From positions 4,256,501 through 4,320,500 of the forward strand of contig NZ_WBXN01000004.1 in assembly GCF_008973465.1 (NCBI RefSeq): 64,000 bases of DNA, read 5' to 3'. The notes beneath the pieces were generated by a model. That model worked only from the letters and a program-made list of their open reading frames with translations, ran no database searches and was not told where the DNA came from. Source of the DNA: Streptomyces sp. SS1-1 (lineage in GTDB: Bacteria; Actinomycetota; Actinomycetes; Streptomycetales; Streptomycetaceae). The stretch's first letter is position 1; every line of letters begins with the position of its first letter. Below, in pieces: positions 60-26,551 of this stretch. The position numbers and the translations under genes are program-made.

Positions 60-84
60 CGACACACCCGACCGCGTGGGTCGG
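60..84 (+). promoter_or_regulatory. Leader hairpin element shared with rpsJ
   Basis: Bases 68-84 form a perfect 6-bp hairpin: CCGACC, loop GCGTG, GGTCGG. Together with the flank from 60, this 25-nt block recurs with one mismatch at 10582-10606, before rpsJ. It lies 50 nt upstream of the rpsL start, so it is probably in the 5' UTR. The repetition before the two major ribosomal operons suggests common control by a protein or RNA factor. That role is inferred. Confidence 0.6.
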
Positions 85-508: not shown

Positions 509-979
509 ATGCCTCGTAAGGGCCCCGCCCCGAAGCGCCCGGTCATCATCGACCCGGTCTACGGCTCTCCTCTGGTGACCTCCCTGATCAACAAGGTGCT
601 GCTGAACGGCAAGCGCTCCACCGCCGAGCGCATCGTCTACGGCGCCATGGAGGGCCTGCGTGAGAAGACGGGCAACGACCCGATCATCACGCTGAAGCGC
701 GCTCTTGAGAACATCAAGCCGACCCTCGAGGTCAAGTCCCGCCGTGTCGGTGGTGCGACGTACCAGGTCCCGATCGAGGTCAAGCCCGGTCGCGCCAACA
801 CGCTCGCGCTGCGCTGGCTGGTCGGTTACTCCCGCGCCCGTCGCGAGAAGACCATGACCGAGCGTCTGCTCAACGAGCTCCTCGACGCCTCCAACGGCCT
901 GGGTGCCGCTGTGAAGAAGCGCGAGGACACGCACAAGATGGCCGAGTCCAACAAGGCCTTCGCGCACTACCGCTGGTAG
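509..979 (+). CDS. rpsG: 30S ribosomal protein S7
   Basis: S7 nucleates assembly of the 30S head by binding the 3' domain of 16S rRNA, and lines the E site. The 156-aa product is full length for the family ([11 protein letters not shown] at the start, then [16 protein letters not shown]). It begins two bases after the rpsL stop. Its ribosome binding site (AAGGAG) lies inside the last codons of rpsL, so translation of the two genes is likely coupled. In E. coli S7 represses its own operon; no equivalent site is obvious here. Confidence 0.97.
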
Positions 980-1018
980 TCGCTCCCCACATCGAGACCG
1001 AGAGAAGACTGAAGCCTT

Positions 1019-3145
1019 ATGGCTACCACTTCACTTGACCTGGCCAGGGTCCGAAACATCGGGATCATGGCCCACATCGACGCGGGCAAGACGACCACCA
1101 CCGAGCGGATTCTGTTCTACACCGGTGTGTCCTACAAGATCGGTGAGGTCCACGACGGCGCTGCCACCATGGACTGGATGGAGCAGGAGCAGGAGCGTGG
1201 CATCACGATCACGTCTGCTGCCACCACCTGTCACTGGCCGCTCGAAGACAACGACTACACCATCAACATCATCGACACCCCCGGGCACGTCGACTTCACC
1301 GTCGAGGTGGAGCGGTCCCTGCGTGTGCTCGATGGTGCCGTGACGGTGTTCGACGGTGTCGCCGGTGTCGAGCCCCAGTCCGAGACGGTGTGGCGTCAGG
1401 CCGACCGTTACGGCGTCCCGCGCATCTGCTTCGTCAACAAGCTGGACCGTACCGGCGCCGAGTTCCACCGCTGCGTGGACATGATCTCGGACCGCCTGGG
1501 CGCCCAGCCGCTCGTCATGCAGCTCCCGATCGGCGCCGAGGCCGACTTCAAGGGCGTCGTGGACCTGGTCCGCATGAAGGCGCTCGTGTGGTCCGCCGAG
1601 GCCGCCAAGGGCGAGATGTACGACGTCGTCGACATCCCGGCCACGCACACCGAGGCCGCCGAGGAGTGGCGCGGCAAGCTGGTCGAGGCCGTCGCGGAGA
1701 ACGACGAAGAGATCATGGAGCTGTACCTCGAGGGCCAGGAGCCCACCGAGGAGCAGCTGTACGCCGCGATCCGTCGCATCACCATCGCGTCCGGCAAGTC
1801 CAGCGACACCACGGTCACCCCGGTGTTCTGTGGCACCGCGTTCAAGAACAAGGGCGTCCAGCCCCTGCTCGACGCGGTCGTGCGCTACCTGCCGACCCCG
1901 CTCGACGTCGAGGCCATCGAGGGCCACGACGTGAAGGACCCCGAGCTGGTCGTCAAGCGCAAGCCGTCCGACGACGAGCCGCTGTCCGCGCTGGCGTTCA
2001 AGATCATGAGCGACCCGCACCTCGGCAAGCTCACCTTCGTCCGGGTCTACTCGGGCCGCCTGGAGTCCGGCACCGCCGTGCTGAACTCCGTCAAGGGCAA
2101 GAAGGAGCGCATCGGCAAGATCTACCGCATGCACGCGAACAAGCGTGAGGAGATCGAGTCGGTGGGCGCCGGCGACATCGTCGCCGTCATGGGCCTGAAG
2201 CAGACCACCACCGGTGAGACGCTGTCCGACGACAAGCAGCCGGTGATCCTGGAGTCCATGGACTTCCCGGCGCCGGTCATCCAGGTCGCGATCGAGCCCA
2301 AGTCCAAGGGCGACCAGGAGAAGCTGGGTGTCGCCATCCAGCGTCTCGCGGAGGAGGACCCCTCCTTCCAGGTCCACTCGGACGAGGAGACCGGTCAGAC
2401 CATCATCGGCGGTATGGGCGAGCTGCACCTCGAGGTGCTGGTCGACCGTATGCGCCGTGAGTTCAAGGTCGAGGCCAACGTCGGCAAGCCGCAGGTCGCC
2501 TACCGCGAGACGATCCGCAAGGCCGTCGAGCGCGTCGACTACACGCACAAGAAGCAGACTGGTGGTACCGGCCAGTTCGCGAAGGTGCAGATCGCGATCG
2601 AGCCGATCGAGGGCGGCGACGCCTCGTACGAGTTCGTGAACAAGGTCACCGGTGGCCGTATCCCGAAGGAGTACATCCCTTCGGTGGACGCCGGTGCGCA
2701 GGAGGCCATGCAGTTCGGCATCCTCGCGGGCTACGAGATGACCGGCGTGCGCGTCACGCTGATCGACGGTGGCTACCACGAGGTCGACTCCTCCGAGCTC
2801 GCGTTCAAGATCGCCGGCTCGCAGGCCTTCAAGGAGGCCGCGCGCAAGGCCAGCCCCGTGCTGCTCGAGCCGATGATGGCCGTCGAGGTCACCACGCCCG
2901 AGGACTACATGGGCGAGGTCATCGGTGACATCAACTCCCGCCGTGGCCAGATCCAGGCCATGGAGGAGCGGGCGGGTGCTCGCGTCGTGAAGGGCCTCGT
3001 GCCCCTCTCGGAGATGTTCGGTTACGTCGGCGACCTGCGCAGCAAGACGTCCGGCCGGGCCAGCTACTCCATGCAGTTCGACTCCTACGCCGAGGTTCCG
3101 CGGAACGTCGCCGAGGAGATCATCGCGAAGGCCAAGGGCGAGTAA
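1019..3145 (+). CDS. fusA: Elongation factor G
   Basis: EF-G is the GTPase that drives translocation of tRNA-mRNA on the ribosome and, with RRF, ribosome recycling. The 708-aa product has all G motifs: AHIDAGKT at 18-25, RGITI at 60-64, DTPGH at 86-90 and NKLD at 140-143. The five-domain architecture extends to the C-terminal region with [16 protein letters not shown]. It lies 39 nt after rpsG in the str operon, with GAGAGAAGA upstream of the ATG. Target of fusidic acid in other bacteria. No truncation or unusual residue was noticed. Confidence 0.98.
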
Positions 3146-3300
3146 CGCACCGCGTTCACACGCTTTAGGCTTGACTCCGGAGCCTCAGGGGGCATTCCAC
3201 CGCAACAGCGGGCGGAATGCCCCGGGGCCCGGGCTTTCCAGCAAAGATCACCTGGCGCCGATGAAGCAAGGCGTTCAGAACCACTCCACAGGAGGACCCC
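3146..3300 (+). promoter_or_regulatory. fusA-tuf intergenic region with strong hairpin
   Basis: This 155-bp gap is long for the str operon. A 10-bp perfect stem pairs 3189-3198 (GGGGCATTCC) with 3214-3223 (GGAATGCCCC). No T-tract follows, so it looks more like an RNA stabiliser, processing site or partial attenuator than a simple terminator. From family knowledge, Streptomyces tuf1 has its own promoter in this gap besides str read-through. I could not pick out -35/-10 boxes with confidence. Confidence 0.5.
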
Positions 3301-4494
<1,194 letters not shown>

Positions 4495-10285: not shown

Positions 10286-10665
10286 CTCCGGCTCGATTGG
10301 CCAGGCCCCTGCCCCGTATGGCAGACTAGCGGGGTTGCTCGGTCGAGTGTTGATGCTGCGCGCCTCCCGCCGGGAGGACCGGAAGCGAGTCCCACAGTAC
10401 TCGTCGCCCTAACTGCCGAAAGGCAGCGCTGGGGCGGACGTACGGGAATCTTCCGGGAAGTGTCGGCGCGGCACCGACCAGGCACCCGGTGGGCCTCCTA
10501 GCTCCCGGCTTGCGGTTCCGGAAGGGCCGTGTTCCCCACGCAGGGATGTTCGAACAAGGGACATCTGTGTCAGCGGGAGCGCGACACGCCCGACCGCGTG
10601 GGTCGGAGGAGGTCAAGGGAACACCGGGTTCCAGAGCGTATGAGAGACAGGACTACTGAGTAGCC
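10286..10665 (+). promoter_or_regulatory. Long structured leader of the S10 operon
   Basis: No credible protein-coding frame was seen in these 380 bases. The region is full of short inverted repeats. Near its 3' end, 10582-10606 repeats with one mismatch the element found before rpsL (hairpin CCGACC-GCGTG-GGTCGG at 10590-10606), 59 nt from the rpsJ start. In E. coli the S10 leader binds L4 to attenuate the operon. Whether L4 or another protein acts here cannot be told from the sequence. Confidence 0.55.
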
Positions 10666-10974
10666 ATGGCGGGACAGAAGATCCGCATCCGGCTCAAGGC
10701 CTACGACCACGAGGTCATCGACTCTTCGGCGAAGAAGATCGTCGAGACGGTGACTCGCACTGGTGCGTCGGTCGCGGGCCCGGTGCCGCTGCCCACTGAG
10801 AAGAACGTGTACTGCGTCATCAAGTCGCCGCACAAGTACAAGGACTCGCGCGAGCACTTCGAGATGCGCACGCACAAGCGCCTGATCGACATCCTCGACC
10901 CGACCCCCAAGACCGTTGACTCTCTGATGCGACTCGACCTCCCGGCCGGTGTCGACATCGAGATCAAGCTCTGA
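10666..10974 (+). CDS. rpsJ: 30S ribosomal protein S10 (NusE)
   Basis: S10 is part of the 30S head and doubles as NusE in transcription antitermination. The 102-aa product has the standard start [19 protein letters not shown] and the [31 protein letters not shown] end. First gene of the S10 operon, 17 nt before rplC, and preceded by a long structured leader. Confidence 0.98.
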
Positions 10975-10991
10975 GGCCGGTGATCTGAACG

Positions 10992-11636
10992 ATGGCTAAG
11001 CAGATCAAGGGCATCCTGGGCGAGAAGCTCGGCATGACGCAGGTGTGGGACGCGAACAACCGCGTCGTCCCGGTCACCGTCGTCAAGGCGGGCCCCAACG
11101 TCGTCACCCAGGTCCGTACGAACGACGTCGACGGCTACGAGTCGGTCCAGATCGCCTTCGGCGAGATCGACCCGCGCAAGGTGAACAAGCCCCTCAAGGG
11201 CCACTTCGCCAAGGCCGACGTCACTCCCCGTCGCCACCTCGTCGAGATCCGCACCGCTGACGCCTCCGAGTACACGCTCGGCCAGGAAGTCACGGCCGAG
11301 GTCTTCGAGGCCGGCGTGAAGGTCGACGTCACCGGCAAGAGCAAGGGCAAGGGCTTCGCCGGTGTCATGAAGCGTCACAACTTCAAGGGCCTCGGCGCCG
11401 GTCACGGCACCCAGCGCAAGCACCGCTCGCCCGGTTCCATCGGTGGCTGCGCCACCCCGGGCCGTGTGTTCAAGGGCCTCCGCATGGCGGGTCGCATGGG
11501 CAACGAGCGGGTCACCACCCAGAACCTGACCGTCCACGCCGTTGACGCGGAGAAGGGTCTGCTGCTCATCAAGGGCGCGGTTCCCGGTCCGAACGGCGGC
11601 CTCGTCCTGGTCCGCACCGCGGCCAAGGGGGCCTGA
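10992..11636 (+). CDS. rplC: 50S ribosomal protein L3
   Basis: An early assembly protein of the 50S subunit whose extension reaches the peptidyl transferase centre. The 214-aa product has the [13 protein letters not shown] start, the [12 protein letters not shown] segment and the extended loop [24 protein letters not shown]. It lies between rpsJ and rplD with gaps of 17 and 8 nt. Confidence 0.98.
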
Positions 11637-11644
11637 GGTAACCG

Positions 11645-12301
11645 ATGAGCACTGTTGACATCCTTTCGCCTGCTGGCGACAAGGCCGGTTCCGTCGAGCT
11701 CCCCGCGGAGATCTTCGGCGTAGAGAAGATCAGCGTTCCGCTGCTCCACCAGGTCGTCGTCGCCCAGCTGGCCGCTGCCCGTCAGGGCACGCACAAGACC
11801 AAGACCCGTGGCGAGGTCCGTGGTGGCGGCAAGAAGCCGTACCGCCAGAAGGGCACCGGTCGCGCCCGTCAGGGTTCGACCCGCGCGCCGCAGTTCGCCG
11901 GTGGTGGCGTCGTGCACGGTCCCGTGCCGCGTGACTACTCGCAGCGGACCCCGAAGAAGATGAAGGCCGCGGCCCTGCGCCACGCCCTCACCGACCGGGC
12001 CCGCAACAACCGCATCCACGTCGTCTCCGGCGTGATCGAGGGCGACAACCCGTCCACGAAGGCCGCGAAGAGCCTGTTCGGCAAGATCTCGGAGCGCAAG
12101 AACCTGCTCCTGGTCGTCGAGCGCGCCGACGAGGCCGCGTGGCTCTCCGCCCGCAACCTGCCCCAGGTCCACATCCTGGAGCCGGGCCAGCTGAACACGT
12201 ACGACGTTCTCGTCTCGGACGACGTGGTCTTCACCCAGGCCGCGTTCGAGTCCTTCGTGTCGGGCCCGAAGGCCGATGACACCGAAGGGAGCGAGGCCTG
12301 A
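11645..12301 (+). CDS. rplD: 50S ribosomal protein L4
   Basis: L4 lines the nascent-peptide exit tunnel; in E. coli it also represses the S10 operon. The 218-aa product carries the Arg/Lys/Gly-rich tunnel loop [20 protein letters not shown], the usual site of macrolide-resistance changes, which looks intact. Its stop codon shares one base with the rplW ATG (TGATG), implying translational coupling. Confidence 0.97.
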
Positions 12302-24340: not shown

Positions 24341-24721
24341 ATGGCACGCGTTTCCGGTGTTGACATCCCGCGCGAAAAGCGCGTGGAGATCGCCCTCACC
24401 TACGTGTTCGGCATCGGCCGGACCCTTTCGCAGCAGACGCTGGCCGCCACCGGCGTCGACCCGAACACCCGCGTTCGCGACCTCTCCGAGGAGCAGCTCG
24501 TCGCGATCCGCGAGTACGTCGACAACAACATCAAGACCGAGGGTGACCTCCGTCGCGAGATCCAGGCCGACATCCGCCGCAAGGTCGAGATCGGTACCTA
24601 CCAGGGTCTGCGTCACCGTCGCGGTCTGCCCGTCCGCGGTCAGCGCACCAGCACCAACGCGCGTACCCGCAAGGGCCCGCGTCGCGCCATCGCCGGCAAG
24701 AAGAAGCCGGGCAAGAAGTAG
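24341..24721 (+). CDS. rpsM: 30S ribosomal protein S13
   Basis: A head protein contacting the P-site tRNA and L5. The 126-aa product has [26 protein letters not shown] and the C-terminal basic tail [38 protein letters not shown] precedes the ATG. Confidence 0.98.
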
Positions 24722-25344: not shown

Positions 25345-26367
25345 ATGCTGATCGCTCAGCGTCCCTCGTTGACCGAAGAGGTCGTCGACGAATTCCGCTC
25401 CCGGTTCGTGATCGAGCCGCTGGAGCCGGGCTTCGGCTACACCCTCGGCAACTCCCTGCGCCGCACCCTCCTGTCGTCGATCCCCGGAGCCGCTGTCACC
25501 AGCATCCGCATCGACGGTGTCCTGCACGAGTTCACCACCGTGCCGGGTGTCAAGGAGGACGTCACCGACCTGATCCTCAACATCAAGCAGCTGGTCGTCT
25601 CCTCGGAGCACGACGAGCCCGTCGTGATGTACCTGCGCAAGCAGGGCCCGGGTCTGGTCACCGCCGCCGACATCGCGCCCCCGGCCGGTGTCGAGGTGCA
25701 CAACCCCGACCTCGTCCTCGCCACGCTCAACGGCAAGGGCAAGCTGGAGATGGAGCTGACGGTCGAGCGTGGCCGCGGTTACGTCTCCGCCGTGCAGAAC
25801 AAGCAGGTGGGCCAGGAGATCGGCCGTATCCCGGTCGACTCCATCTACTCGCCGGTGCTGAAGGTCACGTACAAGGTCGAGGCCACGCGTGTCGAGCAGC
25901 GCACCGACTTCGACAAGCTGATCGTCGACGTCGAGACCAAGCAGGCGATGCGTCCCCGTGACGCCATGGCCTCCGCCGGCAAGACCCTGGTCGAGCTGTT
26001 CGGTCTCGCCCGCGAGCTGAACATCGACGCCGAGGGCATCGACATGGGTCCGTCCCCGACGGACGCCGCGCTCGCCGCCGACCTGGCGCTGCCGATCGAG
26101 GAGCTGGAGCTCACCGTTCGGTCGTACAACTGCCTCAAGCGCGAGGGCATCCACTCCGTGGGTGAGCTCGTGGCGCGTTCCGAGGCCGACCTGCTCGACA
26201 TCCGCAACTTCGGCGCCAAGTCGATCGACGAGGTCAAGGCGAAGCTCGCGGGTATGGGCCTGGCGCTCAAGGACTCGCCTCCCGGGTTCGACCCGACCGC
26301 CGCCGCGGACGCCTTCGGGGCGGACGACGACGCGGACGCGGGCTTCGTGGAGACCGAGCAGTACTAA
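25345..26367 (+). CDS. rpoA: RNA polymerase alpha subunit
   Basis: The 340-aa product has the dimerisation N-terminal domain (about 1-235, with [23 protein letters not shown]) and the C-terminal DNA/activator-binding domain (about 250-315, [27 protein letters not shown]). It ends in an acidic tail ([17 protein letters not shown]). The C-terminal domain is the target of many Streptomyces activators. ATG 25345 is preceded by a weak GAAGGATC. Followed 184 nt later by rplQ. Confidence 0.98.
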
Positions 26368-26400: not shown

Positions 26401-26480
26401 GGTGCGCTGTGGTTTCTCGCGCAGTTCCCCGCGCCCCTTCCGGGCACGGCCCCTCGCGGGGCCTGTGCCCGGATCTCCGA
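26401..26480. repeat. Possible dispersed intergenic repeat with long hairpin
   Basis: Bases 26440-26453 pair with 26458-26472 in a 14-bp stem (CCGGGCACGGCCCC / GGGGCC-T-GTGCCCGG) with one bulged T and a 4-nt loop. The flank TTTCTCGCGCAGTTCCCCGC resembles a sequence I recall from many Streptomyces intergenic regions. It lies between rpoA and rplQ. A genome-wide search is needed to confirm repetition. Confidence 0.45.
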
Positions 26481-26551
26481 CAGGCGACCGCCTGCTCGGA
26501 TACTGACTCCGGTACCTGATACGGCCGGGGCAGACACACAGGAGAAAGAAC

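Follow-up and report, generated by a model that had tools for sequence, protein, structure and literature searches.

A nearly invariant linear 20-mer, CGACACRCCCGACCKCGKGG, is found in the sense direction before rpsL and rpsJ in genomes across the class Actinomycetes, and judged from its sequence it is likely to be an extended candidate DNA operator for WhiA, placed before both the S10 and the str operon. WhiA is a regulator with a helix-turn-helix part and a homing-endonuclease-like part, which acts in Streptomyces as a regulator of sporulation. To our knowledge, its role outside the sporulating species is little understood.

The two copies first noticed lie on the forward strand of the window, which is the whole analysed stretch of 64,000 nucleotides from the genome of Streptomyces sp. 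SS1-1. They occupy 60-84 (CGACACACCCGACCGCGTGGGTCGG) and 10582-10606 (CGACACGCCCGACCGCGTGGGTCGG), and an earlier reading of the window from its letters (the sequence-only reading) had described them correctly: 24 of the 25 bases are equal and one differs, and the distance from the end of the element to the start codon is 50 nt at rpsL (GTG, 135) and 59 nt at rpsJ (ATG, 10666). In the copy before rpsL the conserved 20-mer covers 60-79 and is followed by a variable 3' tail at 80-84; it contains a WhiA-type core GACACACC at 61-68, which fits the pattern GAYACRCY as defined in the main text of PMC11701221, and a conserved second half CGACCGCGTGG at 69-79. For this second half we propose a clade-specific auxiliary role by analogy with the bipartite WhiA site described in the same text. 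In the copy before rpsJ the conserved unit covers 10582-10601, with the core GACACGCC at 10583-10590 and the second half CGACCGCGTGG, conserved among the class copies, at 10591-10601; the centre of the element is 72 nt before the start codon. Both copies are followed on the same strand by ribosomal-protein genes: rpsL (S12, PF00164; 135-506) is the first gene of the str operon, whose remainder (509-4494) consists of rpsG (509-979), fusA (1019-3145) and tuf (3301-4494), and the S10 operon starts (10666-12301) with rpsJ (10666-10974), rplC (10992-11636) and rplD (11645-12301). The Pfam families recognised downstream are accordingly S12, S7, EF-G and EF-Tu for the first copy and S10, L3 and L4 for the second.

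The recurrence of the 25-nt block is far beyond chance, because in the whole SS1-1 genome (7,815,656 bp) only these two copies exist at up to three mismatches, a reversed-pattern control finds none at the same threshold, and a model search gives the two copies at E-values of 6e-5 and 0.002 with the next best matches at 0.5, 1.9 and 6.9. The statement that the element precedes no other operon in the window thus extends to the whole genome, and the further sites that had been envisaged before rplJ, rplK or other growth genes are absent from it. The palindrome CCGACC-N5-GGTCGG inside the block is a different matter. Both copies contain it, the window has it exactly one further time (31973, in another context), and with up to two mismatches it is found 29 times in the window against a shuffle mean of 22.8, which is chance level, therefore the case rests on the whole 25-nt block.

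The proposed search through other actinobacterial genomes shows a wide occurrence of the element. We drew 118 genomes of the class, many of them incomplete assemblies, located S12 in 108 and S10 in 106, fetched 120 stretches, and examined the upstream regions of 102 rpsL and 98 rpsJ genes, our own window counted in; the resulting leader set represents 105 of the 118 genomes, the remainder having no usable S10/S12 match or being left out. An element was scored as present at no more than 7 mismatches to the 25-base consensus, by which the present copies have 0-7 mismatches and all other regions 8-13. On this definition it stands before 93 of 102 rpsL and 55 of 98 rpsJ genes. Counted by genome, both genes carry the element in 45 of the 105, rpsL alone in 40, rpsJ alone in 8 and neither in 1, and 11 were scorable at one gene only; 40 of the 43 genomes without an element at rpsJ carry one before rpsL. 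The single genome scored as lacking it at both genes (G106, locus L139) has, about 350 nt before rpsJ, a sequence starting CGACACGCCCG with an altered second half, which may be a divergent copy. A scan of named genomes gave at least 122 matches, and among the matches listed 46 are before rpsL, 68 before rpsJ and 8 elsewhere, one of these 8 being at a contig end. Genera represented among the listed matches include Streptomyces, Mycolicibacter, Nocardia, Rhodococcus, Micromonospora, Nocardioides, Brevibacterium, Bifidobacterium and Arthrobacter, and all 114 of those at rpsL or rpsJ are in sense orientation.

In one genome, G003, S12 and S10 lie about 31 kb apart, so the operons are unlinked, yet the element is in both leaders. 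In the same genome (L344) the S10 and spc operons are split by about 9 kb (L14 versus S17), and the element accompanies S10 alone: at the spc operon none is found at up to 7 mismatches. The joint control of the str and S10 operons that the first description implied is thus supported, as far as sequence conservation can indicate, by an element kept with its strand at both genes class-wide, even where they are unlinked. Beyond the class the picture is different. In a phylum-wide draw of 198 genomes (17 class members and 181 others) the exact core pattern was found in 17 of 17 class members against 4 of 181 others, and a model built from 73 sequences in 17 of 17 against 2 of 181; for the outside-class matches of either kind, rpsL or rpsJ was found in none of the 3-kb loci.

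What is conserved among the 148 class copies is a linear sequence. Bases 3, 4, 8-10, 16, 17 and 19 are identical in all 148, base 7 is only A or G and base 18 only G or T, and positions 10-20, the second half, are conserved too, while the least conserved part of the 25-nt block is the 3' arm of the CCGACC/GGTCGG stem. Bases 2-9 match the WhiA core GAYACRCY in 142 of 148 copies, and the A/G variation of the element falls exactly on the published R of this core. In the class upstream regions the core occurs at 89 of 102 rpsL genes (shuffle mean 4.8) and 61 of 98 rpsJ genes (shuffle mean 5.3). In addition, a WhiA helix-turn-helix domain was found in 111 of the 118 class genomes, in 99 of the 100 good ones, and in our own genome at C4:1696614-1696862.

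Published work on WhiA agrees with this at rpsJ. According to the main text of PMC3781837, rpsJ is among the WhiA targets that ChIP-seq gave in S. venezuelae, the peak lying 75 bp upstream of its start codon; rpsJ expression is lower in a whiA mutant, and the protein binds GACAC. In the rpsJ leaders examined from eight Streptomyces genomes, the centre of the element is 72-77 bp before the gene, which the published peak fits. The same text places WhiA sites in both orientations and holds that further determinants of specificity beyond GACAC must exist. In Mycoplasma gallisepticum, as the main text of PMC11701221 describes, WhiA binds and represses the rpsJ operon and senses ATP, and repression also requires a second motif on the 3' side of the core; this core is reported upstream of rpsJ from many phyla, Actinobacteria among them. 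Several results fit less well. A very strong WhiA ChIP peak is given for infA of S. venezuelae in the text available, and despite it neither GACAC nor GTGTC occurs within 350 bp upstream of infA in the window. The whiA upstream regions of four genomes from other genera hold no composite site. Elsewhere in the phylum, outside the class, the core stands before 2 of 60 rpsJ genes (shuffle mean 3.1), so it is not enriched there, unlike the wide occurrence set out in the main text of PMC11701221, and before 2 of 22 rpsL genes (shuffle mean 1.0), without clear enrichment.

Comparison with the two described systems shows both what is shared and what differs. Our site resembles that of M. gallisepticum in having the core GAYACRCY before rpsJ, but the auxiliary motif there is GTTGT/-35-like and located at the promoter, whereas here the second half is GACCKCGKGG and the site is found beyond the predicted promoter (PMC11701221, main text). 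With the S. venezuelae regulon it shares the GACAC motif and rpsJ as a target with a peak 75 bp upstream; by its main text that study gives no motif extended beyond GACAC, while here a 20-mer is found, and orientation is mixed there and fixed here (PMC3781837). A near-identical second site stands here before rpsL, a gene with no occurrence in the main text of either PMC11701221 or PMC3781837.

With regard to the promoters, the prediction gives one upstream of the element, of the TTGAC type or its counterpart at rpsJ, in 69 of the 93 rpsL and 41 of the 55 rpsJ cases. The predicted -10 ends 21-199 nt before the element at rpsL and 19-254 nt before it at rpsJ, and in the promoter-predicted cases the end of the element is 28-146 nt (rpsL) or 40-155 nt (rpsJ) from the start codon. 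In the window the predicted -10/start region of rpsJ, TGGCAGACT...GGTTGCTCGG at 10319-10342 on the forward strand, is upstream of the element, is kept in Streptomyces and has similar counterparts in other genera. Since the element is past the predicted promoters at variable distances, it is probably within the transcribed leader, and its distance to each end of that leader varies. A second promoter directly 3' of the element was considered and rejected, for TANNNT at 25-60 bases after it occurs in 8 of 93 rpsL leaders and 0 of 55 rpsJ leaders; seven of the eight share one offset, which may be that of the Streptomyces TTAGCT block. Where rpsJ lacks the element, tuf was recognised in 31 of 43 cases, ending 82-326 nt upstream, and because of this closeness such rpsJ genes may be reached by transcription from rpsL; where the element is present, 11 of 55 cases have a recognised tuf, 246-329 nt upstream. 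The distance ranges overlap, thus this is a tendency only.

Two further observations concern leaders in the same region. The long rpsJ leader of Streptomyces includes, at about 10340-10470, a genus-conserved block with GCGAGTCCCACAGTACTC at 10385 and CGGGAATCTTCCGGGAAG at 10443, which was found among the loci L033-L152 only in Streptomyces and has no Rfam match. For Mycobacterium tuberculosis, RNA-seq work as given in the accessible text of PMC3207917 reports homologous 5' UTRs of rpoA/rpsM and infA/infC; in the window rpsM is at 24341 and rpoA at 25345.

The palindrome had been taken for an RNA hairpin, CCGACC-GCGTG-GGTCGG, and of this claim the palindrome itself stands in both copies and the functional hairpin does not. 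Among 73 sequences no two-sided change was seen in 438 cells of the 6-bp stem, so the covariation that had been looked to is missing; 79.0% of cells are paired, while the shuffles have 79.8% and 489 of 500 of them equal or exceed the observed value, and RNAalifold gives no pair on the element alignment. A script count on 71 distinct 25-mers agrees that the stem is not conserved, and we reject the hairpin as the functional unit. A compact alternative, CCCG-ACCK-CG(K)GG, is invariant with 98.3% of cells paired, hence covariation neither supports nor refutes it; it is rarely the predicted fold, its pairs having a mean probability above 0.5 in just 33 of 148 folded elements. No consistent pairing partner in the rest of the leader was found among the 148 copies: an exact 7-mer complement lies upstream of the element in 20 of them, and in 8 when position 7 is swapped. 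Such a linear, unpaired and distance-variable pattern suits, on sequence grounds, a site for a protein on DNA.

Nevertheless, constant sense orientation and a place downstream of the predicted promoters would be odd for a classical operator, and because fixed strand and position are odd in this way we keep some role of the RNA in consideration, although all such readings together seem unlikely. The best of them is a ribosomal-protein leader RNA, in which L4 or some other protein encoded in the S10 operon would bind both leader RNAs and feed back. Like known leaders of this kind (e.g. RF03132 for L17), the element is located in the 5' leader of ribosomal operons, within the predicted transcribed part and in sense in 114 of 114 of the listed matches; it stays with S10 only in G003, the sole genome seen with S10 and spc apart, and it occurs at rpsJ only in 8 genomes and at rpsL only in 40. 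Unlike those RNAs, however, it has no covarying structure, no mimicry of rRNA was seen, with neither similarity nor antisense to the own 16S/23S rRNA by sequence and a best E of 3.5 for a small model inside an rRNA gene, though a mimicry in structure may exist, and the Rfam covariance models match neither the rpsL nor the rpsJ leader, even at a low threshold. As an independently known DNA core, GAYACRCY, also fits the element, we consider this feedback improbable. The sole Rfam match in the window is an L17-Actino-Proteobacteria leader at 26477-26533 (RF03132, 70.8 bits).

Somewhat less probable still is an RNA element for antitermination, pausing or processing, recognised by RNA polymerase, by Nus factors or by an RNase. 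A short, linear, strand-fixed sequence at the head of long operons, at variable distance to promoter and start codon and with the invariant compact hairpin, would agree with it; but invariance is no test of that hairpin, which has the low pairing probabilities noted above, and the model finds no good copy around the own 16S/23S genes. A site of another DNA-binding protein, with a motif that includes GACACRCC by coincidence, is very improbable. It would account for a conserved unit of 20 bp, longer than the published WhiA core of 8 bp, and for two composite copies in our genome against a WhiA regulon of about 240 transcription units in S. venezuelae (PMC3781837, main text), but the WhiA ChIP peak in that species sits at the element's own distance from rpsJ. 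A translated leader peptide in the frame RH(T/A)RPRG, to which positions 15 and 18 varying like third codon bases, silent in this frame, had pointed, is refuted by frame statistics, the frame being open in 33 of 93 rpsL leaders (39 and 31 for the other two) and 28 of 55 rpsJ leaders (25 and 25), with five of the listed elements starting with TGA.

On the reading as a WhiA operator, the protein would bind the rpsL copy as well as that at rpsJ, its helix-turn-helix domain would read GACACRCC, and its endonuclease-like domain might read the second half, GACCKCGKGG. Bound within the early part of the transcribed region, some 20-250 bp beyond the predicted -10, it could modulate the start or the passage of RNA polymerase, and the str and S10 operons would thereby follow one energy or developmental signal. 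The fall of rpsJ expression in the whiA mutant suggests that WhiA activates rpsJ in S. venezuelae, while in Mycoplasma it represses, so the sign of control may differ between clades. A bolder form, which we put forward tentatively and would sooner expect to fail than to hold, makes WhiA a class-wide regulator of both main ribosomal-protein operons through a near-invariant 20-bp bipartite operator in the early transcribed region, with str and S10 both obeying a single energy-linked signal, perhaps because WhiA on the DNA blocks or licenses the elongating RNA polymerase.

The site before rpsJ is already known in kind, since WhiA represses the rpsJ operon in Mycoplasma and the S. venezuelae ChIP peak and the element centre coincide so closely before that gene. 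Three features appear to be new: an extended site of this type stands before rpsL as well, it is nearly invariant across the class, and it lies on the 3' side of the predicted promoters. No description of the element before rpsL, or of its 20-bp form, was found in the main texts of the open literature. A natural misreading, in which a palindrome-like block is taken for an RNA hairpin, is corrected at the same time. If the proposed reading is true, an extended WhiA binding sequence would be supplied beyond GACAC, and WhiA would be tied to the control of ribosome synthesis across the class through a site before the str and S10 operons.
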